Below are positions 6,187 to 52,269 of a DNA stretch of 64,000 nucleotides, piece by piece (the stretch's first letter is position 1; every line of letters begins with the position of its first letter). The DNA is taken from contig JAJEHL010000041.1 of NCBI GenBank assembly GCA_022823725.1, forward strand, positions 124,001 through 188,000. Direction: 5' to 3'. The DNA comes from Candidatus Latescibacterota bacterium. GTDB taxonomy: Bacteria; Latescibacterota; UBA2968. Both the position numbers and the translations under genes were made by a program. Below the pieces are notes generated by a model, which was not told where the DNA came from, did not search any database, and worked only from the letters and a program-made list of their open reading frames with translations.

Positions 6187-7677
<1,491 letters not shown>

Positions 7678-7758: not shown

Positions 7759-10700
7759 TCAGGCTCTCTTTGCAACGGCTACAATCCGCTTTGCATATCC
7801 CGACATGTCATCCATGAGCGAGTAGATAGTGGGCAAGATGACGAGGGTGAGGATGGTAGAGATCGAGAGGCCAGAGATAATGACCAGACCAATGGGACCC
7901 CAACGCCTGGCATTGCCTTCGGCGTTACCGTAAATCATCGGAATAACCAGCGGCGTAAGCCCCAAGATGGTCGTGGTTGCGGTCATCAAAATGGGGCGCA
8001 GGCGATCCTGTCCGCCACGCAATATCGCATCTCTTCGATATAGTCCTTGCTTGCGATAGCGATTGATGTGGTCGATTAGTACAATGCCGTTATTGACCAC
8101 AATGCCAAATAAAATGAGTAGCCCATAAGTCGCATTGCTGTCCAGCGCAATGCCGAATGTGTAAAGTCCCAATGCGACGCCTATAAAGGCAAAACTGATC
8201 GAAAACATGATCGTAAATGGATGGACATAAGATTCAAATAGCGATGCCATGATCAGATAAATGAGCAGGGCAGCGAAGATCATGGTGAAATTGGTTTCGC
8301 CCTCTTCTGAGGCCATATAGCGGAAGCGCCGATCCATCTGCCAGCTATACCCCTGGGGCAATGGGATGGCATCCATGCGGTCGCGCATTTCATAACCGAC
8401 CGTTTGGACTTCCGAGGCTTCCGTATTTGCAAATACGGTTACGGTTGACATCCGATCCTGACGTTCAATGGATTGGGGACCCTGGGTCAATTCAAAATCG
8501 GCCAGGCTGGCAAATGAAATCATAGTGCCGCGGTTGTTTTCAAAGGAGAGGGTTTTGAGCTGGTCCAGCGTGGCGCGATCCTCTTCTCGCAGTTGCAGCG
8601 CAATATCGATTTCTCCATCCGGTGTTTTGAATTTGCTATTTCCGCGTGCTCCCAATGCCGTGGCAACAGTTGTGGCTATTTGCTGCGGTGAGAGGCCGTA
8701 TTGTTGCGCGCGGTCTCTCCTGACCGATACCCTGATTTCTTCTGTGCCACTTTCCAGGCTGGTTTCCACGTCGTGAATGCCCTCAATATCGTTCATTCGC
8801 AGCCGAATGTCTTCAGCCAAAATTGCCAGAACTTCGGGATTTCGTCCTTTGATTTCTACCCCGACGCCCGTAGCACTGCTGCCACCCCTCCTGAAGCCAG
8901 CTTTAAAACGCACGCCCGGGATGTCTTTGGGCAGCAACTCACTTACCCGTTTTTTCACATCGTCTGTGCTAAGCGGGCTTTCGTCGACGGGTTTTAAGTA
9001 TAAATAAATCGTATTGCCGCGTCGGGTGCTATATCGCGTTTTCATGGCTTCGATATCCAGTTCTTCCTTATGTGGGATGATAATAGCTTCAACCTGTTTG
9101 AAAAGCTCGAGTGCGTCGTCGATATCGTAGGTCCGCGGCATTTCTACCATATAGCCCACCATGCGGTCGGGTTGATAGCGATAGCGCTGTACTTCAATTT
9201 TGGTAAAAATGTATATACCGCCAAAGAGGATAAATGTGGCGACGACAACGGTGGTCCAGCGGTAGTGTAGCGTCGTGCTAATTACGCGCGTGTAAACACC
9301 TTTGAGGCCAAGATGCCGAAACCGAAAATAGAGGAAGGCCACCGTGGCGATAAACGCACCCAGCGCGATCCAGGCCAATATTGGTACGGTCGAAAGCCCA
9401 CCCAAAATCCACAGCGTATTGTCTTTGAGCCAGGTGGCCGATTCAACAATGCCTTCCTGGTAAATGAGATACGCTGCACCTGTGGCAAACAAAGTGCCCA
9501 ATCCAATTTTTAAAAAGAGATCAACCCGGGTACCCGCATTTGAAAATGCCCGAGAGCAGGCCAGCGGTATGAGTGTTAAAGCCACGCATAGTGCCGCTAC
9601 GACTGCAATACACACGGTGATGGCAAAATCGCGCATCCACATTGTGTTGTACGAGCCAGAAATGAAGATGAGGGGCACAAATACACATATTGTCGTCAGT
9701 GCCGCCGCCAGTACGGGTGTTCCGATTTCGCGGCTGCCCTCAATTGCGGCGGTTCGCGTGCCATCGCCTACGTCAAAGCGTCTGCGATAAATATTTTCCA
9801 GAGCCACGACCGCCGGATCGACCAGCATTCCAATGGCGACCATTAAACCCATCATCGAGATCATGTTCAGCGTGATAGTCGATCCAAAGACTTGCCGCAT
9901 CAGATACATGATCATGAAAACACACAGTACCGAAATGGGAATGGCCGACCCCACAATGAGCGTGCTGCGGAAGTTGCGCAAAAATACAAAAATGATGCCA
10001 ATAGCCAGCATGCCTCCCAAAATGGCGGATTGCCCCAGACTGGCGATGCCCTTTACTACTGCTTCTGATTGGTCTCGGCGCAAGTGCAATCGCAATTTGT
10101 CGCGCCCAATTTCATCTTGAAGGGCGTCTAACTCTGCCCGGACCAGGCGGCAGGTTTCTACCAGATTGGCTGTCGAGGTTTTGCGAATTTCCATAGAGAC
10201 CACATCGCGCCCGTCCATGCGTTCAAAATATCGCTTTTCCGGATAGTCGTAACTCACCTGCGCCACATCTTGCACATCCAGGCCATTGGGAAGTGTGAGA
10301 TCCCGAATTTGATCTACATTTTCAAATTCGCCCACTGCCCGCACCGCGAGGCGTTTATCGCCCTCTGTGACATAACCGCCAGAAATGTTGATGTTGTTGG
10401 AGCGTATTGTTCTGTTGAGGGTGCGAATGTCCAGACCATAGGCGTGCATGCGATTTTTATCGACATCCACTCTGAGTATTCTTTCATCGGCGCCTTCCAT
10501 TTCGACATTGCCCACTCCGGGGATGCGTTGCAAGCGCGGCAAGATTGTGTTTTTATACACTGTGGCGAGTTCGGATTGATTATCGCCCAGCCAGACCATA
10601 TTGTAGTCCAAAATTTCCCAATCTGACGAGTCCCATCTGCGCATCTCAATGCGTTCGAGGTCTTCGGGCAGCTGGTTCCGAACTTGATCGACGCGGTCTC

Positions 10701-38331: not shown

Positions 38332-40911
38332 ATGCGACGATTTGACGAATCTCTCAATAACAATTTTTCGGAAGACATGAAACGTGGTGAAGACAATGCT
38401 GAGTGCCTACGCCAAATGCAGCGTTGGTGTAAGCATGTTGAAGTCGAACGAACAACAGAAGGGCTTTACGCGCAAATGACGGGGCTTCCCATAGGAATGC
38501 ATAGTGTGGCTTGCCCCAAAGTAGGGGACAAACCGGAATCCATGAATCTCCGCTGGATTTCCTCCGATTTTCTTGTGGAAAACTGTGCCGCTTGTCCGCA
38601 TCATACCCCAAACGGAGATCCTTCGTGGGGCCATGAAATCATTGATAAACACCGAGAAGATGTCTATAAGCGCGAGCAATCAAAAAAAAAGGAAACGGAT
38701 CGAATATCCAAACTTCGTTCTGAACTGCGTTCAAAATCGAGGGACATTAGTGCGGAAGCCGCCCCCGAATCTTACCTCATACTCAAATATCTTGAGGCGA
38801 TTTTCTCTGAAGATGAAACCGAATGTAAGGAAGCTGCCGAACGATTGGAGCAATCTGCACGCATAGGAGCAGACCTTTTTCCAGACGCGGCAATTGAACT
38901 GGTCTTGCTGCTTGCAGGCTCCAATGAGTTTTCCGAATTACTGCTTCCGGTCTGTAAGGAACTCGCTAATAGACGGTCCGATTTAGTGACTCGTCTAAGT
39001 CAGGTTTCTCTTGACAACATTGAAAAAGGGCTACACTTGGAGCAATCTGCTTCAGTGCTGGCCGCGCTCGGCGATGGCGTTACCTATCCGCTTGGTGAAG
39101 TATATATCAAACAGCTACTCCTCTCACAGGACCATGACTTGCTTGGGTTATCCGATGAACCTGACTATTCTCACAGTACCGCGATTATCGTACGCAGTTT
39201 TGACGTTGATCCAGAGAGCGTTCAAAATATTATTCGCTGCGAACTCCAGCATGAGAGCGACCGTGTGCGCGTGTATTTGTGTAGGGCAATCAAACTCATT
39301 CAAGAGGTAAGACCGCAGATAACTATTAATCTTTTCGATGCCCTCGTTCAATCTCTTGAACTCCACGAAAATACACTGTCAGGTGGAGAGCAACCATCAA
39401 AACAAATTATCCAAATTTTGCAATCGGCGTTTCGACACTCTACCGATATGGTTGATCACTTCCTTGTTGAGTCAATGACTCGTGTTCGTTCAGCCGTACA
39501 AGAAGATATTGTTGACATATATCGAGATCAGTTCTTTGACCGTACGATAAGTTGGGAAAAACGGGATGAACGGCGAAATCGAACAGAAGTGTCAGAACCG
39601 GAAAAGGTGGCAATTCGGCGATTACTTACATGGGCTAAGGATGACCAGCTCGAAATCGACATTCGTGTCCAGGTGGTTGAAGCATTGGGAACTGCCTGCA
39701 CATATGCATCGGCAGAGATGATACATCACTTTGACTCTATTCTTGGCTACTTTGCCATAATTAGTGGTCAGGAACACCCTCCCAATGCGCCTCCCAGGAT
39801 TCTACTTCCCGGTCAGTCCCAAAGTACTCAGCTTGAGCAACCGGATGAATTTAGTCGAACTCAGCATTGGAGTACATTCAAAGATCGATTGCAAAAATGT
39901 TTGGCAGAACTCAGCAAGGCCAAACCATTAGAGACATTTGATTCCATCTGCAGCTGTTTGAACCAATCATCGGCACACCTTGAGGATGGTTTCAAAGCGT
40001 GCTGTGTGTCATTACTCGGAGAACTTGGCAAAGATTATACTCTTCGCCCACAGATACTGGCTCTGCTCTGGCGTGGATTAATGGATTACGATTCGGATTG
40101 GGTAAGGTCTCAGGCGATAGAAGCGACAATAGAGATGTTCTCATCTTCAGCCTCTTCACCACCCGCGAATATGGTGGATACAATTATTGTCCATTTACAA
40201 GATCCCAAAATCGTTGTTCATAAAGCTGCTTTGCAAGCTGTGTCACGGCGCCCAAGATGGTTTGATGAGAAGCAATCGTTTGAAGCTCTGACGTGCCTTG
40301 AGCGGCATCTTCATGCGTACCGCAATGACAAGTACCAACTTGATGATATTTGTAGAGGAATCTTGTCGGTCAGTCGTCGATATGAGCACCTTAAGCCGTT
40401 TGCATTACGTCTGATTGAGCCAATCTTTCCGACTCAAGAAAGTCTTGTCGATGGAAAAATCGCCGAGGCACTGATCGGGTTTTGTGAGCCAAATGACGAA
40501 AATGCCGCACTTGTCGCGAAAGATATTGGTGCCCATTTGGCAAATCATGATAGAGATCGTTACAACTATTACGGGTATTCTGAACGCTTACGTATGTTTG
40601 AATGGTTGCATCAATTGCCAGAGAAGACGTACCAGCGTGTGGCAGACGACCTTTTGGCATCTGCCAGAAGAATAGCTGAACACGATATTTGGGAGTCATG
40701 CCACTTCGCAAGTCTGTTTTCACACTTTCAAGCATTTCGGTATGAGCAAGCTGTTTTAGAAACCGCAGCTAACGCTCTGCCTGAAGAACCAAGGCACGAG
40801 ACGTCTCGTGCTAACTTACATCAACTCGCGATGATTGCAGCCGGGAATGCAGCTTTACAGAAAGGTGACGCAGAAAAGGCCGAAGCATATTTTGCAAAAG
40901 GGAAAGGTTGA
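38332..40911 (+). CDS. Unknown cysteine-motif helical-repeat (HEAT-like) protein
   Basis: 859 residues from the ATG at 38332 (AAGGAA upstream); a GTG at 38290 would add 14 residues. Not recognised as a known family. The first 100 residues carry C25, C33, C61 and a C85-A-A-C88-P-H-H cluster, suggesting a zinc or Fe-S site. Residues 100-140 are charged and helical (KREQSKKKETDRISKLRS). The rest is almost wholly alpha-helical with HEAT/ARM-like units such as LRPQILALLWRGLMDYDSDWVRSQAIEATIEM and VDTIIVHLQDPKIVVHKAALQAVS. The last 40 residues look TPR-like (AALQKGDAEKAEAYFAKG). It is 35-75 bp after hsdS, and its stop overlaps the next start (TGATG), so the two are translationally coupled. I infer that this protein is the sensor or scaffold and the next one the nuclease. 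Confidence 0.55.
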   Translation: MRRFDESLNNNFSEDMKRGEDNAECLRQMQRWCKHVEVERTTEGLYAQMTGLPIGMHSVACPKVGDKPESMNLRWISSDFLVENCAACPHHTPNGDPSWGHEIIDKHREDVYKREQSKKKETDRISKLRSELRSKSRDISAEAAPESYLILKYLEAIFSEDETECKEAAERLEQSARIGADLFPDAAIELVLLLAGSNEFSELLLPVCKELANRRSDLVTRLSQVSLDNIEKGLHLEQSASVLAALGDGVTYPLGEVYIKQLLLSQDHDLLGLSDEPDYSHSTAIIVRSFDVDPESVQNIIRCELQHESDRVRVYLCRAIKLIQEVRPQITINLFDALVQSLELHENTLSGGEQPSKQIIQILQSAFRHSTDMVDHFLVESMTRVRSAVQEDIVDIYRDQFFDRTISWEKRDERRNRTEVSEPEKVAIRRLLTWAKDDQLEIDIRVQVVEALGTACTYASAEMIHHFDSILGYFAIISGQEHPPNAPPRILLPGQSQSTQLEQPDEFSRTQHWSTFKDRLQKCLAELSKAKPLETFDSICSCLNQSSAHLEDGFKACCVSLLGELGKDYTLRPQILALLWRGLMDYDSDWVRSQAIEATIEMFSSSASSPPANMVDTIIVHLQDPKIVVHKAALQAVSRRPRWFDEKQSFEALTCLERHLHAYRNDKYQLDDICRGILSVSRRYEHLKPFALRLIEPIFPTQESLVDGKIAEALIGFCEPNDENAALVAKDIGAHLANHDRDRYNYYGYSERLRMFEWLHQLPEKTYQRVADDLLASARRIAEHDIWESCHFASLFSHFQAFRYEQAVLETAANALPEEPRHETSRANLHQLAMIAAGNAALQKGDAEKAEAYFAKGKG

Positions 40912-42404
40912 TGCAACGAGCAGAATTACAACTTAAGCATGCTTTTAATTCAGCGTCACTCATTCATGACACACAGGCAATTCTGAACTCGGCAACAGAA
41001 GGGCAGACAGAGTGGACTCAGGCGGTTAGTTCTGTCATCAATCGTATTGACGATATCCTTACACATACGCCTGAATCTCATGTACCGATAGAGTGGCGCG
41101 TTATGGTTACTGGGCTTCGTGTCTTGGCTAGTCAGGTTGCTTGTGTGACAATAGCTCAGGAAGGGAAAGGTGACTTGGTTGCAGAACGCGCAAGATGTGA
41201 TGTCTTAGTGGGTGAACTGCACCGTCTGGTATCGAAGGATTCTTTAGCATTGCCGGAAAGTACGGATTCAATTCGCCAATCATTGCTCCAAACAGGGCAA
41301 TGTAATACCGATGAGTTGCGGGCATTCCTTTTGATGGTCCCACTGCCCACCTTGTATTGGAATGCGAGAGAATTGGAATTTCCGTATCCAGTTGCAGATC
41401 GAGAATCCAATACTTCACCGAGTCCGATGTTGCGAGTGATTGTATTTCTGGACCATGTCCCAATCGCAAGTCCACAATTCTTAAAGTCCAATATTTTGTA
41501 TCCATTGGTATTTCAAGTCCGTGGTCTCACATGGCCCAGTGATGCGGTTCGCCTTCGCCTTGATTTACTCACGACGTGTCCGCAGGGTGAGTTCTCGGTT
41601 TCGGATTTCACTTTGGATAAACCTCATTGTATTAAGGACGGTGAATATCAAGGAAAATTGGTAGGGCAAATCAAGTTCAACTCGGGACAAAGTAGCGTTC
41701 TGGATGATCTCATATTTACAGTTCGTAGCGCATTTGAGACCTCTGATGGTGATTTCACAGAAATTCCAGTAATAGGACATAATGAGTTGCGATTAAGAGT
41801 CGTCAATGAAGATCGACAGCCTCTAATGACGGGCAACCGACGGCTGGATCAACATATTGCAGATCTTGTTACAAAATTGCTTTCAGACCATCCAAGGGTT
41901 CAAGATGAGTTGCCGGACTTACTGGACATGCTCGAAGCTCTTGCGGGTCTCCTCGCCACATATGCTCAAGAGGCTATTTTCAAGGAGAGGAGTGATGTAC
42001 CAGAGTCTGAGTTTCAAAAAACAGTGCTTCGAGACCTTCGAAGCCAGCTTGGACAGGATGTACAAGAACACCCAAACCAAGCCGGGGGCATCGCAGATAT
42101 CAGGTATCGAGGTGTTATTGTTGAACTAAAGGTTGAAAGAGAAAACGGTGATCGTGAGTATATTTCGAAGAAATACACGGCCCAGGCCGCTCAATATGCC
42201 GGTGTAGAGGCCAGGCAGGTCAGCATTCTTCTGGTGCTTGACCTTACGACCAAAGATAAGCCTCCCGGTGACATTAGGAATGATATTATTCTCACTGATG
42301 TCGAGACCCATGGAGGAGACGATGGAGCCAAAGAGTTTCCATCCAAAACATTTGTCTTTGCGATCAATGGGAATATGAAAAGTCCATCAACCTATTCCCG
42401 ATGA
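40911..42404 (+). CDS. Unknown protein with C-terminal PD-(D/E)XK nuclease domain
   Basis: 497 residues; the ATG shares one base with the previous stop, and GGGAAAGG is its ribosome site. Residues 1-340 are not recognised: a helical start, then a beta-rich part with RLRLDLLTTCPQGEF and FNSGQSSVLDDL. Residues 360-470 show the core of a PD-(D/E)XK nuclease: a helix with E367, then D396 in IADIRYRG and E405-L-K407 (VELKVE), followed by a helix with QAAQYAG that fits a motif-IV position. This is a plausible DNA-cutting effector. It is the last gene of the hsdS-side cluster; the intergenic region to darT is 300 bp. Confidence 0.65.
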   Translation: MQRAELQLKHAFNSASLIHDTQAILNSATEGQTEWTQAVSSVINRIDDILTHTPESHVPIEWRVMVTGLRVLASQVACVTIAQEGKGDLVAERARCDVLVGELHRLVSKDSLALPESTDSIRQSLLQTGQCNTDELRAFLLMVPLPTLYWNARELEFPYPVADRESNTSPSPMLRVIVFLDHVPIASPQFLKSNILYPLVFQVRGLTWPSDAVRLRLDLLTTCPQGEFSVSDFTLDKPHCIKDGEYQGKLVGQIKFNSGQSSVLDDLIFTVRSAFETSDGDFTEIPVIGHNELRLRVVNEDRQPLMTGNRRLDQHIADLVTKLLSDHPRVQDELPDLLDMLEALAGLLATYAQEAIFKERSDVPESEFQKTVLRDLRSQLGQDVQEHPNQAGGIADIRYRGVIVELKVERENGDREYISKKYTAQAAQYAGVEARQVSILLVLDLTTKDKPPGDIRNDIILTDVETHGGDDGAKEFPSKTFVFAINGNMKSPSTYSR

Positions 42405-43363: not shown

Positions 43364-44452
43364 ATGATCGAATATAAAACCGGTGATATCCTCTCGGAAG
43401 AAGCCGAAGCCTTGGTCAATACCGTCAACTGCGTCGGAGTTATGGGGCGTGGTATCGCGCTTCAGTTCAAACGCGCTTTTCCCGAAAACTTTAAGGCATA
43501 TGAAGCCCTATGCAAGCGCAATGAAATGCAACCGGGTTGTGTGTTTGTCTTTGAGACGGGTGAGCTATTTTCTCCTCGCTACATTATCAACTTCCCGACC
43601 AAACGGCACTGGCGAGGCAAAAGCCGCATTGAGGACATTGAATCTGGGTTAGTGTCGCTTAAAAAGGAAATTCAGTCTCGGGGTATCCGCTCAATCGCCA
43701 TTCCCCCGCTCGGTAGTGGGCTGGGTGGGCTAGATTGGGCTGAGGTGCGTGTCCGTATGCAAGCGGCCTTGGAAGAATTGGAAGATGTGAAAATCGTCAT
43801 ATTCGAGCCGGGTGGTGGGCCGGTGGATGAGCGGGCCAATCGTTCGCGTGAAATTCCGAAAATGACGCCAGGGCGCGCTGCACTGGTAGGACTGATGGGC
43901 TGCTATCTCCGCGGCTTGCTGGATCCATTTGTGACGCTACTGGAAGTGCATAAGCTCATGTATTTTATGCAGGCCGCAGGCGAGCCATTGAAACTGCAAT
44001 TCGCCAAAGGGACGTATGGCCCTTATGCTGAGAACCTTCGGCATGTGTTGAACGCCGTTGAAGGGCATCTGGTGTCTGGTTATGCCGATGGTGGCGATGC
44101 GCCTGATAAGGAGTTGGAATTGGTGCCCAGTGCGCTTGATGATGCTCAGGCGTTTCTTGAGAACGAAACTGACACACGATCTCGTTTTGAAAGAGTTTCT
44201 GATCTTGTGGAAGGCTTCGAGTCGTCGTTTGGCCTGGAATTGCTCTCTACGGTGCATTGGATCGCCAGCGAGGAGAAGATATTGGACTTTGACGATATCG
44301 TGAATCACACTTACGCCTGGAGCGAGAGAAAGAAACAGTTTTCGCTGCGTCAGATTAAGATCGCATTTGATATTTTGTCAGAGAAGGGCTGGATTGAGTA
44401 TTCCGGTGTGGGTGATACAGCGCATCCGGGAAGGACATCTCATAAAAAATAA
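43364..44452 (+). CDS. darG: DarG-like macrodomain antitoxin
   Basis: 362 residues; AAGGAGA precedes the start. The N-terminal macrodomain (about 1-150; GDILSEEAEALVNTVNCVGVMGRGIALQFKRAFP, and PPLGSGLGGLDW) removes the ADP-ribose that DarT adds to DNA. The C-terminal 200 residues (GCYLRGLLDPFVTLLEVHKLMYFMQ, FAKGTYGPYAENLRH) form the helical domain that binds and sequesters DarT. It is the second gene of the darT-darG operon. Confidence 0.94.
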   Translation: MIEYKTGDILSEEAEALVNTVNCVGVMGRGIALQFKRAFPENFKAYEALCKRNEMQPGCVFVFETGELFSPRYIINFPTKRHWRGKSRIEDIESGLVSLKKEIQSRGIRSIAIPPLGSGLGGLDWAEVRVRMQAALEELEDVKIVIFEPGGGPVDERANRSREIPKMTPGRAALVGLMGCYLRGLLDPFVTLLEVHKLMYFMQAAGEPLKLQFAKGTYGPYAENLRHVLNAVEGHLVSGYADGGDAPDKELELVPSALDDAQAFLENETDTRSRFERVSDLVEGFESSFGLELLSTVHWIASEEKILDFDDIVNHTYAWSERKKQFSLRQIKIAFDILSEKGWIEYSGVGDTAHPGRTSHKK

Positions 44453-44602
44453 GTAAAGAAAACGAGTCTGAAAAAGGATATTATAAAAAAGAAAAATATA
44501 TAAATACTTGTTTTGCAAAGACTTGTTATTTACTAAATTTTAGAATTTTTTGAGAGTTTAGTAAAGGATTTAGTAAAGAAGCGTTGTTTTTCAAACTCTC
44601 GG
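44453..44602. other. A+T-rich non-coding stretch after darG
   Basis: No gene is seen between the darG stop and the first TTGA motif. The stretch is strongly A+T-rich and free of long open frames with a ribosome site. Confidence 0.5.
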
Positions 44603-44860
44603 TTGACTGTGAGCCTGAATCTTTTAACTTTGTTTGACGGTTGCTTGATGGTTGTTTGATAGAAAATCTGAAAAATGATTCAGCAAAGCAGATTCGATTT
44701 TGTAACTTATTGTTATACAAATATTTACTGTTTTGAACTTTGTTTGATGGTTGTTTGATAGAAAACCTGAAAAATGACTCGGTGGAGCAGGTATGGTTTT
44801 GTAACTCATTGTTATAAAACCACTTACCGTTTTGAACTTTGTTTGATGGTTGTTTGATGG
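44603..44860 (+). repeat. Phased TTGA(C/T)GG array 1, upstream of the ImmA/IrrE operon
   Basis: Seven heptamers TTGA(C/T)GG or TTGATAG start at 44634, 44645, 44656, 44744, 44755, 44843 and 44854. Neighbours within a cluster are exactly 11 bp apart, and cluster starts are 110 and 99 bp apart, so all seven are in the same 11-bp phase. The clusters are embedded in two full tandem units (from 44626 and 44736) and a partial third (from 44835), with shared text GAACTTTGTTTGA, CTGAAAAATGA and TGTAACT-ATTGTTATA. A related TTGACTG is at 44603. The array is 200-430 bp upstream of the gene at 45062. Confidence 0.8.
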
Positions 44861-44887
44861 AAACCAAATGACCACCGACGTCACCGA

Positions 44888-44970
44888 GCGCGTTTGATGT
44901 CTATTGCAGAGCGGCCCGATATTGGATATACTCTCACAAACTGATAGGGGCCATAGTGAGGCCGTGCGAA
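44888..44970 (+). repeat. Promoter-like cassette, copy upstream of the ImmA/IrrE operon
   Basis: Same order and spacing as 42,510-42,590 (GCGCGTTTGA, GATATTGGATATACTC, GGCCGTG). It lies about 90 bp upstream of the ImmA/IrrE start, on its downstream side of array 1, and includes a TATACT that could serve as -10 box. Confidence 0.65.
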
Positions 44971-45061
44971 ATAATTCTGGAGTGAGGACCATTGAAGGGG
45001 CTATGGAAGAATTGGGTGATGTGACGACTGCGGTGGAGGACAATAATAAAGGTTGTAACCC

Positions 45062-46228
45062 ATGAGTAGCCGACGCTTACAAATAACATTGCAGCCGGAT
45101 GTGTTGAGATGGGCGCGGGAGCGGGCGCGCATTGATGCTGAGCAATTGGCGGACAAGATGCAGGTGAAGCCGGAGCGCGTGTTGGATTGGGAGCGCGATG
45201 GTAAGATCAGTATTGCCCAGGCAGACAGACTTGCCCAGCGTACCTATACCGCTCTGGGTTTGCTATACTTGACGGAGCCGCCCAAGGACCTTTTGCCAAT
45301 ACCCGATTTTCGTGCCCAAAGCAATGATTTGCAACCGAGTGTGAATCTCCTCGATACTATTTATCTAATGCAGCGTCGTCAAACGTGGATGCGCGAGGAG
45401 TTGATCGGGGAAGGTGCAACGCCGCTGAACTTTATTGAGAGCTATGAGATAGATGGCGATCCCTTGCAAGTCGCCCGTGCGATGCGCGATGCGCTCCAAC
45501 TTGCTGACGATTGGGCAGCATCTGTATCTACCTGGTCTAATGCACTCGGACATTTGCGGAGTAGAGCCGAGGATGCCGGTGTGATGGTGGTTTTCAATGG
45601 CGTTGTGGGAAATAATCCAAGACGCAAACTCGATCCAGATGAATTTCAGGGCTTTGCTCTCGTAGATGAGTATGCCCCATTGGTCTTTGTGAACAATGCC
45701 GATTTCAAAGCAGCGCAGATGTTCACCCTGGCCCATGAACTCGCACATCTTTTTGTTGGAGAGACTGGGGTATCCAGTTTTGAACATCTGACGTTTGATT
45801 CTAATACCACAGAGAGATTTTGTGACCAGGTAGCGGCGGAGTTTTTAGTGCCAGTAGCAGAGTTGCGAGCCTTCTGGCCTATAGCTGAACAGGCAAGCGA
45901 TCCTTATCAATCTGTTGCACGCCAGTTCAAGGTAAGTTCTGTTGTAGCCGCACGGCGAGCACGCGACCTCGGCTTGATTGATCCGATTGCCTTTTTCAAA
46001 TTCTATGACGAATATACGGACAGGGAGTGGCACAGCAGTCAGCAAAATCAAGCAAGTGGTGGAAATTTCTGGAACAATCAGAACTGGCGTATCGGCACCC
46101 GCTTTGGCACGGCAATCTTCCGTGCAGTGAAGGAAGGCCGCCTGCTTTATCGCGAGGCGTACAATCTCACTGGTCTAAAGGGGAAAACTTTTGAAAATAT
46201 GCGAGAAAAGATGGGGATATCGGTGTGA
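45062..46228 (+). CDS. XRE-type HTH plus ImmA/IrrE metallopeptidase
   Basis: 388 residues. An N-terminal HTH (RARIDAEQLADKMQVKPERVLDWERDG, about 18-65) is joined to an ImmA/IrrE protease domain with the zinc site H225-E-L-A-H229 in FTLAHELAHLFVG, and a downstream CDQVAAEFLVP helix where the third ligand lies. Such proteins cleave repressors or antitoxins. The next gene overlaps it by 4 bp (GTGA), an arrangement seen for ImmA/IrrE with DUF4411 PIN-like partners. The HTH may bind the phased heptamers upstream. Confidence 0.9.
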   Translation: MSSRRLQITLQPDVLRWARERARIDAEQLADKMQVKPERVLDWERDGKISIAQADRLAQRTYTALGLLYLTEPPKDLLPIPDFRAQSNDLQPSVNLLDTIYLMQRRQTWMREELIGEGATPLNFIESYEIDGDPLQVARAMRDALQLADDWAASVSTWSNALGHLRSRAEDAGVMVVFNGVVGNNPRRKLDPDEFQGFALVDEYAPLVFVNNADFKAAQMFTLAHELAHLFVGETGVSSFEHLTFDSNTTERFCDQVAAEFLVPVAELRAFWPIAEQASDPYQSVARQFKVSSVVAARRARDLGLIDPIAFFKFYDEYTDREWHSSQQNQASGGNFWNNQNWRIGTRFGTAIFRAVKEGRLLYREAYNLTGLKGKTFENMREKMGISV

Positions 46229-46746
46229 TAAATCAGGTGCGCTCCTTGTTTGTGCTGGATACAAATGTTTTTGTAGAGGCGCATCGCCGCTATTACGCGC
46301 AAGATCTATGCCCGGGATTCTGGGATTGTCTGACGCATTATTGCAGCGAGGGGCGAGTGTTAAGCATTGATCGGGTTCGCGATGAGATACTCAGCAATCA
46401 AGATCAACTATCTGATTGGGTGAATCAAGTACCGGACGATTTATTTATATCATCAGCGGAACCAGAAGTTGTAAATGCTTTTACGGACATGATGGATTGG
46501 GTACAAAGGAATGAGCAGTTTCTGCCTGAAGCAAAAGTGGAGTTCGCAAGTGTAGCTGATGGGTGGCTCTCAGCCTACGCGAGGGTCCACAACGCGGTTG
46601 TGGTTACTCAAGAGATATTTAACCAAGATGCGAGGAAAAGAGTACCCCTGCCAAATGTATGCAGGCAGTTTGATGTTGATTACCGAGATACCTTTGGGAT
46701 GTTGCGCGAGCTTGAGGTCAGTTTTGACTGGAGACGTTCTTCATGA
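46225..46746 (+). CDS. PIN-like (DUF4411-type) protein, likely toxin/RNase
   Basis: 173 residues, GTG start overlapping the previous stop. The PIN-like signature LFVLDTNVFVEAHRRYY has the first acidic metal residue, RVRDEIL supplies the next, and VADGWLSAYARV and TQEIFNQDARKRVPLPNVCRQFDV complete the fold. DUF4411 proteins occur beside ImmA/IrrE proteases as toxin-antitoxin-like pairs. RNase activity is inferred from the fold, not shown. Confidence 0.8.
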   Translation: MINQVRSLFVLDTNVFVEAHRRYYAQDLCPGFWDCLTHYCSEGRVLSIDRVRDEILSNQDQLSDWVNQVPDDLFISSAEPEVVNAFTDMMDWVQRNEQFLPEAKVEFASVADGWLSAYARVHNAVVVTQEIFNQDARKRVPLPNVCRQFDVDYRDTFGMLRELEVSFDWRRSS

Positions 46747-46775
46747 CCACTTTGACCTGAGTTCCCATTCAGTAA

Positions 46776-46974
46776 TTGACGGGTAATTGATGGGTAATTG
46801 ACGCAAAGCGGGCCGAGAAGCTGTAAATTTCACTTAACTTATTTATTTTACTTAAATTATGTTAATTGATGGGTAATTGACAGTTACTTGACTGGCAACC
46901 GGCGATATGAGGTCGTATTTTACATAAATTATTGAATATACGACGGTTATTTTACTTGACTGGTACTTGACTGG
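46776..46974 (+). repeat. Phased TTGA(C/T)GG array 2, upstream of hsdR
   Basis: Eight related heptamers start at 46776, 46787, 46798, 46866, 46877, 46888, 46956 and 46967: TTGACGG, TTGATGG, TTGACGC; TTGATGG, TTGACAG, TTGACTG; TTGACTG, TTGACTG. Within each cluster the spacing is exactly 11 bp. The three clusters begin 90 bp apart. The hsdR start is 29 bp past the last heptamer. The motif is the same as in array 1. Confidence 0.8.
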
Positions 46975-47002
46975 AACCCATTCCGAAGCGAGAAAGTAAG
47001 GT

Positions 47003-50000
47003 ATGAAGAGTCCGGATACTGAACCAACACAATCTCAGAGAGAAGAGCTGGATGCGCTTGCGGCGCTGCCCGATGAGCAGATAGATACCTCTGATATTCC
47101 CGAGAGTCTCGAGGGGTCTAATTCTGTGCGCGGGCTGTTTCAGAAGTCCGCGAGTGAGCGGAGTAAGGCGATGGATGAGTTGAGAGGCAGACGTCCGTCG
47201 GTTACGGATACTTCTGAACGTGGTTTGGAAGATCGCATTTGCGAGGTGTTGGCTGGCGGGGCGGATAAATCGAGTGCGGGTGATGTAGGGGAACGTCCGG
47301 CTGTTTATGGTGTTGGCTGGCGTTATGGAGATCGCGAGGATTATGACCGCGAGTATTGTGTGGATCTGGCGCAGTTGTCGGCTTTTTTGGTGGCGACGCA
47401 GCCGAAGGTTGCCGATGCGCTGTCTCTGGGGAGCGATAATCCGACGCGGCGCAGGTTTCTCACCCGGTTGAAGGGCGAGGTTGGCAAGCGCGGGATTGTG
47501 GATGTGCTTCGCAATGGTGTTAAGCACGGGCCGCATGATGTTGCGCTTTTTTACGGTGCGCCATCGCCGGGCAACAGACGGGCGGTGAAGCTTTATGAGC
47601 AGAATCGCTTTTCGGTTACGCGCCAGTTGTCGTATAGCAATGCCAATAAGCGGCTCGCGCTCGATCTCGCGCTGTTTATCAATGGGTTGCCGGTGGCGAC
47701 TTTTGAGTTGAAGAATAGTTTGACCAAGCAGACGGTGGCAGATGCGGTTGAGCAGTACAAACGTGACCGGGATCCAAAGGAGGATCTTTTTCGCATTGGT
47801 CGTTGTCTGGCTCATTTTGCTGTGGATGAGCACGAGGTGATGTTTTGTACGCATCTCAGGGGGAAGTCGTCCTGGTTCCTGCCTTTCAATAAGGGGTTGG
47901 ATGACGGTGCGGGTAATCCGGTCAATCCCAATGGGCTTAAAACCGATTATCTGTGGCAGGAGGTTCTGACCCGGCAGAGTTTGACGGATATTATCGAGAA
48001 TTATGCTCTGCTGGTGGAATCTGCCGATACAAAGACCGGGCGCAAGACGCAGTCGCAAATTTGGCCGCGCTATCACCAGTTGGATGTGGTGCGGAAGTTA
48101 CTGGCGGATGCTGGAGAAAATGGTGCGGGACAACGCTATCTGATTCAGCATTCGGCGGGGAGTGGGAAGTCCAATTCTATTGCCTGGTTGGCGCACCGTC
48201 TCATTGGGTTGGAAAAGGATGGTGAGACGGTTTTTGATTCTATTATTGTTGTGACTGATCGGATTATTCTGGATAGGCAGATCAATGATACGATCCGGCA
48301 GTTTGCGCAAGTGAGCGCGACGGTTGGACATGCCGAAAAGTCTGGTGATTTGCGTCGTTTTATCGGCGCGGAGAAGAAGATCATTATTTCTACTGTGCAG
48401 AAGTTTCCGTTTATCCTGGATGAGATTGGTACAGATCATCGGGGGAATCGCTTTGCGATTATCATTGATGAAGCCCATTCCAGCCAGGGTGGGCGTACGT
48501 CTTCGGCGATGGCGCAGGCACTGGGCGATCATGAAGACGGGGATGATGACGATACGTTTGAGGATCAGATTAACCGCATTATTGAGCAGAAGCGGTTGTT
48601 GACCAATGCGAGCTATTTTGCTTTTACTGCGACGCCAAAGAATAAGACGCTGGAGTTGTTTGGCACACCATCGTCGCAGTCCGATGGTACGACAAAGCAT
48701 CTGCCTTTCCATAGCTATGCGATGAAACAGGCGATTGAGGAGGGGTTTATTCTGGATGTGCTGGGCAATTATACGCCGGTGAAGAGCTATTATCATCTTG
48801 CCAAGACGGTAGCAGACGATCCAGAGTTTGATACGATAAAGGCGAAGAAGAAGCTTGTCCAATATGTGGAAACGCATAGCCATGCTATCCGGCTCAAAGC
48901 GGAGATTATGGTTGATCACTTTCACGAGCAGGTGCTGGCTCCGCGCAAAATTGGGGGACAGGCGCGGGCGATGGTTGTAACGGGTGGTATCCAGATGGCG
49001 CTTACCTACTATCACGCCATCCGCAATTATCTGAAGGAGCGAAATAGTCCGCATAAAGCTATTGTCGCTTTTTCAGGTGAGACGGATTACGGTGGTGAGA
49101 GAGTGAGTGAAGCGTCGTTGAATGGTTTTCCGTCGTCGCAGATTGCCAGTAAGATTCAGGAAGATCCCTATCGGTTTCTGGTCTGTGCGGATAAGTTTCA
49201 GACGGGTTACGACGAGCCTTTGCTGCATGTGATGTACGTGGATAAGGTACTTTCTGGTATTAAGGCTGTGCAGACCCTTTCGCGTCTCAATCGCGCCCAT
49301 CCGGAAAAGCGCGATACGTTTGTGCTGGATTTTTACAATGATGCCGATGGGATCAGAGATGCTTTTGCCGATTACTATCGCACGACTATTTTGGCGGATG
49401 AAACCGATCCCAATAAGTTACACGATCTCAAAGCTGATCTGGATGGCCGGCAAGTTTATTCGGATGAGCAAGTCCACGAGTTGGTGGCGTCGTATTTGAA
49501 GGGCGATGACCGCGGGACTTTTGATCCGATTCTGGATGAGTGTGTGGCGGTCTATCGAAGTGAGTTGGATGAGGACGGGCAGGTTGAATTTAAGGGCAAT
49601 GCCAAGGCTTTTGTTCGCGCATACAACTTTTTGTCTCAGGTGCTTCCCTACGCGAATGTGGCGTGGGAGAAGCTTTCCATTTTTCTGAATTTTCTCGTTC
49701 CCAAGCTGCCGACGCCGGTTACTGAAGATTTGTCGCTGGGTATTGAGGGTGCTATTGATATGGATAGCTATCGCGCCGAGAAGCAGGCGACGATGCAAAT
49801 TATGCTGTCCGATGAGGATGCCGAGATCGAGCCGGTGCCCACAGGTGGTGGCGGCTTTAAGCCAGAGCCGGAGATGGACCGGCTTTCCAATATTCTCAGG
49901 GCGTTTAACGATCTTTTTGGCGATATTCCGTGGACCAATGAGGACCGCATACGCAAGATGATTACCGAGGATGTTCCGAGGATGGTCGATGAGGATAGTG

Positions 50001-50182
50001 CCTATCGCAATGCGCGGGAACATTCAGATGAGCAGAATACGCGCATTGAACACGATAAGGCGTTGGAGAAGGCGATTATGACGCTGCTTTCGGATGATAC
50101 CGAACTCTACAAGCAATACTCTCAGAATGAAGCGTTTAAGCGTTGGTTGGAGAATAGTGTGTTCGAATTGACCAATCGCTGA
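47003..50182 (+). CDS. hsdR: Type I restriction endonuclease, R subunit
   Basis: 1,059 residues. HsdR translocates DNA and cuts it when the target is unmethylated. The N-terminal nuclease domain has the PD-(D/E)XK residues ending in E235-L-K237 (TFELKN). The superfamily 2 motor has Walker A in H383-SAGSGKS and the D489-E-A-H box, then FAFTATPK, and a second RecA domain with VCADKFQTGYDEPLL and QTLSRLNRAHP. It works with HsdM (31106) and HsdS (36882), which are unusually distant. Array 2 lies immediately upstream, and a strong hairpin follows. Confidence 0.95.
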   Translation: MKSPDTEPTQSQREELDALAALPDEQIDTSDIPESLEGSNSVRGLFQKSASERSKAMDELRGRRPSVTDTSERGLEDRICEVLAGGADKSSAGDVGERPAVYGVGWRYGDREDYDREYCVDLAQLSAFLVATQPKVADALSLGSDNPTRRRFLTRLKGEVGKRGIVDVLRNGVKHGPHDVALFYGAPSPGNRRAVKLYEQNRFSVTRQLSYSNANKRLALDLALFINGLPVATFELKNSLTKQTVADAVEQYKRDRDPKEDLFRIGRCLAHFAVDEHEVMFCTHLRGKSSWFLPFNKGLDDGAGNPVNPNGLKTDYLWQEVLTRQSLTDIIENYALLVESADTKTGRKTQSQIWPRYHQLDVVRKLLADAGENGAGQRYLIQHSAGSGKSNSIAWLAHRLIGLEKDGETVFDSIIVVTDRIILDRQINDTIRQFAQVSATVGHAEKSGDLRRFIGAEKKIIISTVQKFPFILDEIGTDHRGNRFAIIIDEAHSSQGGRTSSAMAQALGDHEDGDDDDTFEDQINRIIEQKRLLTNASYFAFTATPKNKTLELFGTPSSQSDGTTKHLPFHSYAMKQAIEEGFILDVLGNYTPVKSYYHLAKTVADDPEFDTIKAKKKLVQYVETHSHAIRLKAEIMVDHFHEQVLAPRKIGGQARAMVVTGGIQMALTYYHAIRNYLKERNSPHKAIVAFSGETDYGGERVSEASLNGFPSSQIASKIQEDPYRFLVCADKFQTGYDEPLLHVMYVDKVLSGIKAVQTLSRLNRAHPEKRDTFVLDFYNDADGIRDAFADYYRTTILADETDPNKLHDLKADLDGRQVYSDEQVHELVASYLKGDDRGTFDPILDECVAVYRSELDEDGQVEFKGNAKAFVRAYNFLSQVLPYANVAWEKLSIFLNFLVPKLPTPVTEDLSLGIEGAIDMDSYRAEKQATMQIMLSDEDAEIEPVPTGGGGFKPEPEMDRLSNILRAFNDLFGDIPWTNEDRIRKMITEDVPRMVDEDSAYRNAREHSDEQNTRIEHDKALEKAIMTLLSDDTELYKQYSQNEAFKRWLENSVFELTNR

Positions 50183-50391: not shown

Positions 50392-52269
50392 ATGGCAGAA
50401 CTACGATTCGACATTACGCCATTTTTGGATCAAGACGAAGGTCAGCATTTTGATCGCAAGTCGTTGTATGAAGGGGCTGAGGGTACTAAACGGTCACGTA
50501 ACCGTCGCGCTGTGCGGGATCAGGTTGCGGAATACATCGCTGCCTTCGCTAATGCCGAAGGTGGCGTGCTTATCCTGGGCATAGAGGATGACCGCACCAT
50601 TACAGGACACCAGCTACCACAGGATGCTTTGAACAGTATCTTGAAGACCCCGAGTACGCGCTTGCGGCCCGTACAACCCGATGGTTTTGTTATGCAGGTT
50701 GAAGGGCGCGAAGTGATTGTTTTTGATGTACCGGCTTCAGATGTTCCCGTTCAAGTAATCGGGGATGGCTTCCCGTTGCGAATGGGTGATCAGACCGTGC
50801 AATCCAGCGAGAGCCAAATCAATACGCTCAAGTTTGAAGGTATGGCGGAGAGTTGGGAAAGCCGACGATCATCAATTACTTTGGCTGATTTAGACGAACA
50901 ACTGTTAGAACGCGCGCGACAAGGGGCGGGTTTATCCGCTTTGAGTGATGAAGAGTATTTGCTCAAGCGCAAATTGGCCGACCGTCGTGGCCGAGGGATC
51001 GTGCTTCGAAATGCTGCGGAGTTGCTTTTTGCCCGTTATGGTCCGGACCATCCCAATGCTGGCGTCCGTCTATTTCGCGTCATTGGTACAGAGCGATATA
51101 CCGGACCCGAGCACAATGTCGAAGAACGCCCGCGTTGCGAAGGCAACTTGCCTGAGGTCATATCGGAAATCCGCACTGTTATCAGCAGTCTGCTGCGGCG
51201 CCCGATGCGGCTCGTGGGTAGTCGCTTTCAGGAGTCCACCGAATACCCGGACTTCGCATGGCTGGAGGCGTTGCTAAATGCCGTCGCGCATCGCGATTAC
51301 AGGGTTGAAGGTGCTGGCATAGAGGTCTGGCTATTTGATGACCGCATGGAAGTGGCCAGCCCAGGTGGTCTGGTCGGCAACTTGACCACGGAAGCGTTGC
51401 TCACGCTCAGGCGCGTCCATCATAGTCGCAATCCCCGCATTATCCGGGTGCTCGTAGATCTCGGGCTCGCACGCGATCAGGGCGAGGGTATTCCGCGTAT
51501 GTTCGCAGAGATGGAAGACGCTTTTTTGCCGAGGCCAGATATAGATGCGACCAACCGCAGCGTTACGGTCACACTTCGGAACACGCTTACTCTGAACGCC
51601 AGTGATAGAGAATTTATCTCGGCGCTCGGTGATATTGAGCTTTCTCGCAATGAGTTTCGGGCATTGCTTTACACTTATCGTCATGATCAGATAGACAATG
51701 CCAGACTGCGTGCTTTATCCGGTTTGGATACCTTGAGTGCCAGTTACCTTTTACGCGGTCTCCGTGACCGAGATTTGCTGGCTCTTCATTCTCATGGTCC
51801 TAATAGCTACTATACATTGACTTCTGTTCTGACATCGCAAGTTAGAGAATATAGAGCCAAAGGTGAGGAGAAAGGCCCGGATAGGAGGGAGTTCGCCCCG
51901 GATACAGGTAAGCTAGGCTCAGATGCAGGTAAGCTAGACTCGGATACAGGTAAGCTAGGCTCGGATACAGGTAAGCTAGGCTCGGATACAGATAAGCTTA
52001 CTGATGATATCCAGGCAGCTATTGACCAACTTGGCCAGCGACCGCGTCGGGAAAACCTACGCCCCGTTATTCGCGCAATATGCGATCAAGGGAGATGGGT
52101 AACTGCCGCTACACTTGCCGATTACCTGGGTTTTCACAAAAAAAATCTATTAGGACACCTCGGAGAAATGGTGCAAAGTAAAGAACTCGAGCGACGCTTT
52201 CCGGACAAGCCTAAACATCCTGGTCAGGCTTACCGAGCCGTTGTATCCCAACGCCCTGAAACAAGTTAG
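50392..52269 (+). CDS. Schlafen-AlbA_2 domain plus HATPase-like protein (full-length copy)
   Basis: 625 residues. The N-terminal AlbA_2/Schlafen-type domain is visible in FLDQDEGQHFDRKS, AFANAEGGVLILGIEDD and VIVFDVPASDVPVQ. The middle has the HATPase_c_4-like region with HRDYRVEGAGIEVWLFDDRMEV and SPGGLVGNLT, then GEGIPRMF. COG2865-type proteins of this build are predicted nucleic-acid-binding regulators and occur in defence islands. A heptapeptide repeat region (about 504-536) precedes a short C-terminal winged-helix-like part (LRPVIRAICDQGRWVTAATLADYLGF). The stop codon lies inside the left inverted repeat of the element at 52,266, so the C-terminus may have been truncated by its insertion. 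Confidence 0.8.
   Translation: MAELRFDITPFLDQDEGQHFDRKSLYEGAEGTKRSRNRRAVRDQVAEYIAAFANAEGGVLILGIEDDRTITGHQLPQDALNSILKTPSTRLRPVQPDGFVMQVEGREVIVFDVPASDVPVQVIGDGFPLRMGDQTVQSSESQINTLKFEGMAESWESRRSSITLADLDEQLLERARQGAGLSALSDEEYLLKRKLADRRGRGIVLRNAAELLFARYGPDHPNAGVRLFRVIGTERYTGPEHNVEERPRCEGNLPEVISEIRTVISSLLRRPMRLVGSRFQESTEYPDFAWLEALLNAVAHRDYRVEGAGIEVWLFDDRMEVASPGGLVGNLTTEALLTLRRVHHSRNPRIIRVLVDLGLARDQGEGIPRMFAEMEDAFLPRPDIDATNRSVTVTLRNTLTLNASDREFISALGDIELSRNEFRALLYTYRHDQIDNARLRALSGLDTLSASYLLRGLRDRDLLALHSHGPNSYYTLTSVLTSQVREYRAKGEEKGPDRREFAPDTGKLGSDAGKLDSDTGKLGSDTGKLGSDTDKLTDDIQAAIDQLGQRPRRENLRPVIRAICDQGRWVTAATLADYLGFHKKNLLGHLGEMVQSKELERRFPDKPKHPGQAYRAVVSQRPETS
50777..51816 (+). repeat. 1,040-bp direct repeat, copy 2
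   Basis: Nearly identical, without gaps, to 33,336-34,375. It lies within the intact AlbA_2/ATPase gene. Confidence 0.9.
51901..52000 (+). repeat. 21-bp minisatellite encoding heptapeptides
   Basis: About five 21-bp units of the type GATACAGGTAAGCTAGGCTCG follow in frame and encode DTGKLGS, DAGKLDS, DTGKLGS, DTGKLGS, DTDKLTD. Copy-number changes would keep the frame. Confidence 0.85.

Follow-up and report, generated by a model that had tools for sequence, protein, structure and literature searches.

Phased heptamer arrays in a Latescibacterota restriction locus belong to a repeat element found behind a clade of AlbA_2 (Schlafen) genes

Why do two arrays of evenly phased direct repeats lie within a type I restriction locus, one of them directly in front of hsdR, and what would read them? 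In the window, by which we mean the whole 64,000-nucleotide stretch of Latescibacterota DNA analyzed here, the + strand gene order begins with hsdM (31061), an AAA/OLD-like gene, hsdS (36882), and two long open reading frames (ORFs), continues with darT (42707), darG (43364), array 1, an XRE-ImmA gene (45062), and a DUF4411 gene (46225), and ends with array 2, hsdR (47003), and an AlbA_2-HATPase gene (50392). The flanks are common to the loci of the genus and resemble core genes; judging by eye, we take them to be a ribosomal protein L21 gene upstream and a MazG-like gene with an aminotransferase gene downstream. At 40908-42404, the C-terminal part of an ORF matches the PADLOC LmuA model (1e-21).

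Array 2 (46776-46973) consists of eight TTGAY heptamers in three clusters of 3, 3, and 2 units, all on the + strand. In cluster 1 (46776-46804), which belongs to what we call kind B, the units TTGACGG, TTGATGG, and TTGACGC start at 46776, 46787, and 46798. A kind-B spacer (46805-46865) with the AT-rich core TTAACTTATTTATTTTAC leads to cluster 2 (46866-46894; TTGATGG, TTGACAG, TTGACTG), and a kind-C spacer (46895-46955) with the core CATAAATTATTGAATATACG leads to cluster 3 (46956-46973), where two TTGACTG units start at 46956 and 46967 and which ends about 30 bp upstream of the start codon of the hsdR fusion; across either spacer, 68 bp separate the last unit from the next first unit. The array is composite, its clusters flanking two different spacers, and its middle cluster is a hybrid that starts as kind B (GTAATTGAYGG) and finishes as kind C (TTACTTGACTGG). 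Between 46740 and 47003 there are five TTGAY pairs at lag 11 and none at lags 6 to 10 or 12 to 21, and 20,000 Markov shuffles of the same interval never contained more than one lag-11 pair. The pattern TTGAY-N6-TTGAY-N6-TTGAY occurs three times in the 5.34-Mb genome, always at this locus, and its reversed form does not occur in that genome. A first-pass annotation had described three clusters at 46776, 46866, and 46956, in exact 90-bp steps and with an 11-bp unit pitch; both the letters and the shuffles bear this out.

The same annotation presented array 2 as repeating the structure of array 1 (44634-44860, + strand), which holds for the phased TTGAY clusters present in both but not for the super-period: array 1, of kind A, has clusters of 3, 2, and 2 units at 44634, 44744, and 44843 with a super-period of 99 bp, not 90. 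Upstream of array 1 lies an inverted repeat that we call block D (44526-44580, + strand; arms 44526-44538 and 44568-44580), whose right arm (TTTAGTAAAG) is repeated 12 bp further on; it is possibly a second operator. By eye, a block D-like block is also seen upstream of hsdR in two other loci, L037 and L132, and the L132 counterpart (near 7530-7600) differs in sequence yet is self-complementary.

The strict three-unit pattern is found in 10 of the 11 genomes of the genus and in none of the 36 other genomes of the class (G011-G046), a count that is blind to two-unit clusters and to other words. Within the genus, nearly all arrays lie in the interval from hsdS/darTG to hsdR and set exchangeable cassettes apart from one another. 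These cassettes include XRE-ImmA with DUF4411 (G000, G003, G006), XRE-ImmA alone (G004, G005), HigB with a small partner (G005), BrnT (G004), and AlbA_2 proteins (G001, G002, G005, G007, G009), and arrays also stand before or behind the HigB, AlbA_2, and BrnT/BrnA-like cassettes. Measured from the last unit to the next first unit, spacers of kind A span 87 to 88 bp, those of kind B 66 to 68 bp (83 bp where B runs into A), and those of kind C 68 bp. Hybrid clusters form where one kind passes into another: from B to C in the window, from B to A in G004, and from A to C in G007, the last with ten units in one row. Across G000, G003, and G006, variable columns number 0 of 52 in the TTGA core, 12 of 91 in the rest of the unit, and 81 of 264 in the spacers. 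Comparison of homologous loci had been proposed as a check on the arrays, and in it the 11-bp phase was retained while the flanks varied.

Because array 2 precedes hsdR and array 1 precedes the XRE-ImmA operon, the first-pass annotation had suggested that one regulator, the ImmA/IrrE protein, governs both. The XRE-ImmA cassette gene (45062-46228, + strand) encodes a Peptidase_M78 protein that is RmrA-like by PADLOC (best 4e-16 against the RmrA models), a match that we take to indicate a RosmerTA-like pair. Its neighbor (46225-46746, + strand) is assigned to DUF4411 by Pfam and is presumably PIN-like. In comparison with a RosmerTA-like pair, XRE-ImmA is here just a cassette, and a PADLOC search gave no match for the DUF4411 partner. 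The arrays do flank the XRE-ImmA operon in the window, G003, and G006, yet G001, G002, G007, and G009 carry arrays and yield no match to that protein, the sole match in G008 (63%) lies away from the array locus, and arrays occur in other genera and on plasmids as well (plasmid genomes being outside the gene search). Arrays in genomes without the gene led us to reject XRE-ImmA as regulator of the arrays, and we consider it highly improbable that the ImmA/IrrE protein controls both arrays here. A DNA-binding regulator is still the best reading of the shared motif; what falls away is the proposed identity of that regulator.

The array goes with a different gene. It is one copy of a repeat element whose usual place is behind genes of one AlbA_2 clade, beginning a few to about 100 bp past the stop codon; these genes encode an AlbA_2 (Schlafen)-GHKL-winged-helix architecture with a C-terminal P(F/Y)WA. 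In the element, 11-bp phased heptamers form two or three clusters arranged about an AT-rich core. Our sample of 24 usable clade loci came from a search with the AlbA_2 protein and was not chosen by arrays. It comprised 11 whole-genome loci, 12 plasmid loci (12 read among 69 plasmid records), and 1 viral contig, spanning Latescibacterota, other phyla, and named plasmids. In 20 of these 24 loci, the first 220 bp past the stop contain a 6-mer that is repeated exactly at lag 11, against 1.24 expected, although several are close relatives and n = 24 therefore overstates their independence. The same test at lags 7 to 10 and 12 to 16 scored 0 to 3 of the 24. Pooling all 31 loci gives 26 with a lag-11 6-mer behind the AlbA_2 stop. 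Among 20 other AlbA_2 genes of the genus, in contrast, only 1 has an 11-bp phased repeat (Fisher 1e-7 versus the clade). The four clade loci without a lag-11 match after the stop were L324, L343, L350, and L351; in L324 the element is further downstream, and in L351 clusters lie upstream.

The repeat word differs among lineages (TTGATCGGG, TTGATTGGG, GTGACTGG, TTGATCGTT, TTCACCG, TTGACTGG, TTGATGG) while the 11-bp pitch stays constant. Word distance tracks protein distance (Mantel r 0.43; 0/2000; n = 27), a correlation that is equal for all domains and so is explained by common descent as well as by recognition. The genes behind the element vary as well. In four loci of other phyla that were found by their arrays (L132, L139, L136, L189), an AlbA_2 gene or its end is followed by the array and then by hsdR or its start, an order read partly by eye. 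An Aliarcobacter operon runs hsdM-AlbA_2-array-hsdS, a Desulfosarcina operon DUF1156-AlbA_2-array-phospholipase D-like antiphage gene, and Pseudosulfitobacter and Actibacterium operons methylase-(hypothetical)-AlbA_2-array-(repeat protein)-nuclease. In L174, the next gene after the array reads, by eye, as a thiolase gene in convergent orientation; since the array is present there all the same, the element belongs to the AlbA_2 gene and not to the neighbor. Such a phased-repeat element behind AlbA_2/Schlafen genes has apparently gone undescribed so far: we found no account of one in the literature searched, which included few subscription papers.

Arrays without any clade member at E 1e-20 occur in the window genome and in G003, G004, and G006. 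The AlbA_2-HATPase_c_4 gene downstream of hsdR in the window (50392-52269, + strand) belongs to another clade, 25% identical to the array-linked one, and G003 has no close copy of its product. Within this gene, a 21-bp unit is repeated in tandem at 51899-51998, and the linker that it encodes, D-(T/A)-G-K-L-(G/D)-S, is repeated accordingly.

Sequence beside the window arrays suggests what became of the cognate gene. Directly before array 2, positions 46746-46772 (+ strand) match the 3' end of the G001 AlbA_2 gene, of the P(F/Y)WA clade, and its flank at 17 of 27 positions, which none of 441 control sites equaled. Eight genus arrays tested in this way gave matches of 15 to 21 of 27; one of them, the G005 array at 10235, had a match equaled by 1 of 165 control sites. 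After array 1, and 7 bp beyond its last heptamer, positions 44868-44897 (+ strand) encode M-T-T-D-V-T-E-R-V-stop, which resembles the start of hsdR (score 8 of 11; 39 of 3000 control windows reach at least 7). A peptide scoring at least 7 stands behind 15 of the 24 genus arrays, as a remnant at +7 or +8 in 13 cases and at +18 in one, and as the genuine hsdR at +10 in G003. The other nine arrays score 4 to 6, and most of them lead to a BrnA-like ORF. Genuine hsdR genes start 10 to 12 bp behind arrays in G003, L112, and, by eye, L132. Judged from these sequence traces, the window has lost its cognate AlbA_2 gene, whose 3' end is left before array 2 while an hsdR-start remnant is left after array 1. 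The remnants beside the two arrays imply that both were parts of an AlbA_2-array-hsdR unit, with cassettes exchanged into or across it; the arrays look like left-over parts of that unit and not like operators made for the protease pair.

In the window, the first 66 or so codons of hsdR (47003-50182, + strand) correspond to a 75-aa ORF, fused in frame, which we take to be BrnA-like; a Pfam search with it gave no match. This ORF (47003-47200 in the window) stands alone in G001, G002, and G007 and follows a BrnT gene in G004, and the G002 copy terminates in an hsdR-start remnant. We also considered whether the array is a general leader of hsdR. An hsdR start or remnant lies 7 to 10 bp after 14 of the 24 genus arrays, but the link to AlbA_2 is far stronger, and we rejected this candidate. 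A three-unit chain is absent upstream of 17 of 19 hsdR relatives (two of the stretches were short, and two-unit clusters would escape), and the 4 kb upstream of six plasmid hsdR relatives contain neither a three-unit lag-11 chain nor a TTGAY pair.

The spacing of the clusters bears on whether the element works as DNA or as RNA. Distances between clusters fall at 54, 67 to 68, 77 to 79, 88 to 90, and 99 bp and are quantized near 11 bp (R 0.86 for 22 hand-curated values; R 0.67 with five left-out values restored; R 0.83 with one value per lineage; each 0/5000 random sets). That clusters are placed in increments of about 11 bp speaks for double-stranded DNA and against a transcript that would act as a repeat-bearing leader or as the RNA antitoxin of a Schlafen-type RNase. 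Such an RNA would recall type III toxin-antitoxin systems (ToxIN-like), in which tandem repeats likewise sit beside an RNase-type defense gene; unlike those repeats, the element lies behind the gene, is built of 11-bp, helix-phased units, and has no Rfam match (none at E up to 5 in 44400-47100). The fixed sense orientation behind the AlbA_2 gene would suit an RNA, as would the folding of the array 1 leader with block D, which is better than that of shuffles (z -2.96), and a weak covariation in the kind-A spacer stem, where five pairs are changed on both sides. Array 2, on the other hand, does not stand out in folding (z -1.39; equaled by 15 of 200 shuffles), and kinds B and C have no stem in common. 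We regard an RNA role as improbable.

If the element is read as DNA, the AlbA_2 protein itself offers a candidate reader. The C-terminal 84 residues of the L132 protein were modeled as a winged helix (pLDDT 79.8), which superimposes on the DtxR DNA-binding domain with Z 8.1 and an rmsd of 2.0 over 65 aligned residues; the model of the whole protein is poor (pLDDT 51.6). The nearest solved folds are the DNA-binding domains of DtxR, IdeR, and MntR, together with LexA and MarR (Z 7 to 8). Winged helices are common, so a Z of 8 shows fold and not function. Operators of the OmpR-PhoB and SARP types are heptameric direct repeats at an 11-bp pitch that are read by tandem winged helices, and heptameric direct repeats are reportedly named in one study of SARP-LAL regulators. 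The array has this design, its heptamers being direct repeats every 11 bp, and a regulator of the OmpR/PhoB or SARP type encoded elsewhere could conceivably bind it. The array differs from such operators in having several clusters 54 to 99 bp apart, a link to a Schlafen-type gene, and one locus per genome. Three-unit sites confined to one locus per genome do not fit an unlinked regulator, nor does a word that varies with the locus-encoded protein, and the association with AlbA_2 genes would be left without a cause; we find such a regulator decidedly improbable. No OmpR-type protein was among the best 50 fold matches listed for the winged helix, which excludes nothing.

Our preferred reading, to which we give roughly even odds (a probability of about 0.5), is that the array is a DNA site of the AlbA_2 winged helix that would act beside hsdR and would also be a recombination joint. 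In outline, the winged helix, or a surviving relative such as the 50392-52269 protein, would occupy adjacent heptamers along a single face of the DNA, and clusters several helical turns apart would come together in one complex beside the effector gene. Lying between the AlbA_2 gene and an effector, whether hsdR or another, the array could be an operator or a roadblock that delays or switches this effector. Since a shared direct repeat bounds each module, the copies could also be joints for exchanging toxin-antitoxin and defense cassettes, which would explain why these collect between hsdS and hsdR. Pointing to such joints are the hybrid clusters, the cassette mosaics, the repeats and gene remnants of L328, L332, and L338 described below, and the ends of alignments between genus loci: 34 of 193 lie no more than 50 bp from a cluster, versus 11.8 expected, the ends not being independent.

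The recombination part of this reading can also be taken by itself: the array may be a mere end repeat of a mobile AlbA_2 unit that loops out and reinserts via direct repeats, so that arrays elsewhere would be scars devoid of a regulatory role. AlbA_2 genes of other genera have the element on both sides, and in L328 repeats of about 175 bp either side of the gene are, by eye, near-identical; AlbA_2 3'-end remnants precede not only genus arrays but, by eye, the upstream arrays of L332 and L338. Added to these are hsdR-start remnants after 14 of 24 genus arrays, the mosaics of cassettes, and the retention of the element where a target gene is absent behind it. Where AlbA_2 genes have no co-directional target behind the array (L174, L342), an end repeat explains the array better than an operator for the following gene would. 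Nevertheless, no recombinase was noticed among the annotated locus proteins, and although scars should decay, no TTGA-core position varies across three genomes that lack the gene, an invariance that gene conversion could also produce. We consider a role purely as an end repeat to be rather unlikely.

Beyond the window, we suggest tentatively, at rather less than even odds, that a Schlafen-type clade travels with its own helix-phased landing array and that the pair is a self-contained control-and-exchange module spreading through the defense operons of several phyla, gating the downstream effector and supplying joints for cassettes. How restriction subunits and embedded toxins stay restrained while a defense island arrives or rests is poorly known. 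If the suggestion is true, the array would be a first cis-element dedicated to the timing of hsdR in such type I systems, and a protein-plus-array module in many phyla and various defense operons would be a general control device.

A close described counterpart is the RptR operator, in which short direct repeats control a type I restriction-modification island with darTG between hsdS and hsdR; the available part of that report also names the hsdS-hsdR gap as a potential recombination hotspot for defense systems (PMC12255303). As far as that part describes them, both are short direct repeats in type I restriction-modification/darTG islands, but RptR repeats are 9 bp long, contain the palindrome TAGCTA, and lie in the promoter upstream of rptR and hsdM (PMC12255303), whereas those described here are asymmetric heptamers, spaced at 11 bp and located behind an AlbA_2 gene. 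The window arrays lie between darG and hsdR and not at that promoter position, and TAGCTA, counted as the exact palindrome only, occurs 6 times in the window (5.07 expected) and not at all in 44600-44900 or 46740-47003. Schlafen-family proteins with a C-terminal histidine kinase and wHTH have been described from at least 1017 taxa, in BREX-type loci, and proposed as backup RNases (PMC12839542). Their domain order, as given in the accessible portion of that account, is that of the array-linked protein; the same portion mentions no repeats or DNA site, and "direct repeats" occurs in it zero times. Another report, to judge from its available part, deals with repeats of another kind (PMC12458937).

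Similar repeats also turned up outside the clade. A genome-wide scan returned at least 115 stretches, and of the 114 that were re-read, 33 lie inside long ORFs and 81 outside; most look like chance or unrelated minisatellites. A scan of viral contigs gave at least 120 stretches with similar words in mixed orientation. Ten phage contigs (L201, L207, L211, L238, L242, L246, L279, L283, L285, L292) share a near-identical three-unit array (TTGATGGGTAC, TTGACGG, TTGAT) between genes of related contigs, with no AlbA_2 gene noticed nearby. In a Prevotellaceae locus without recognized restriction genes (L122, 1210-1510), five TTGACGGTTAT clusters follow one another in steps of 65, 76, 76, and 65 bp. 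In Calothrix (L144, 4463-4491), three TTGATGGGTAA units fill, by eye, the gap between apparent methylase and restriction genes.
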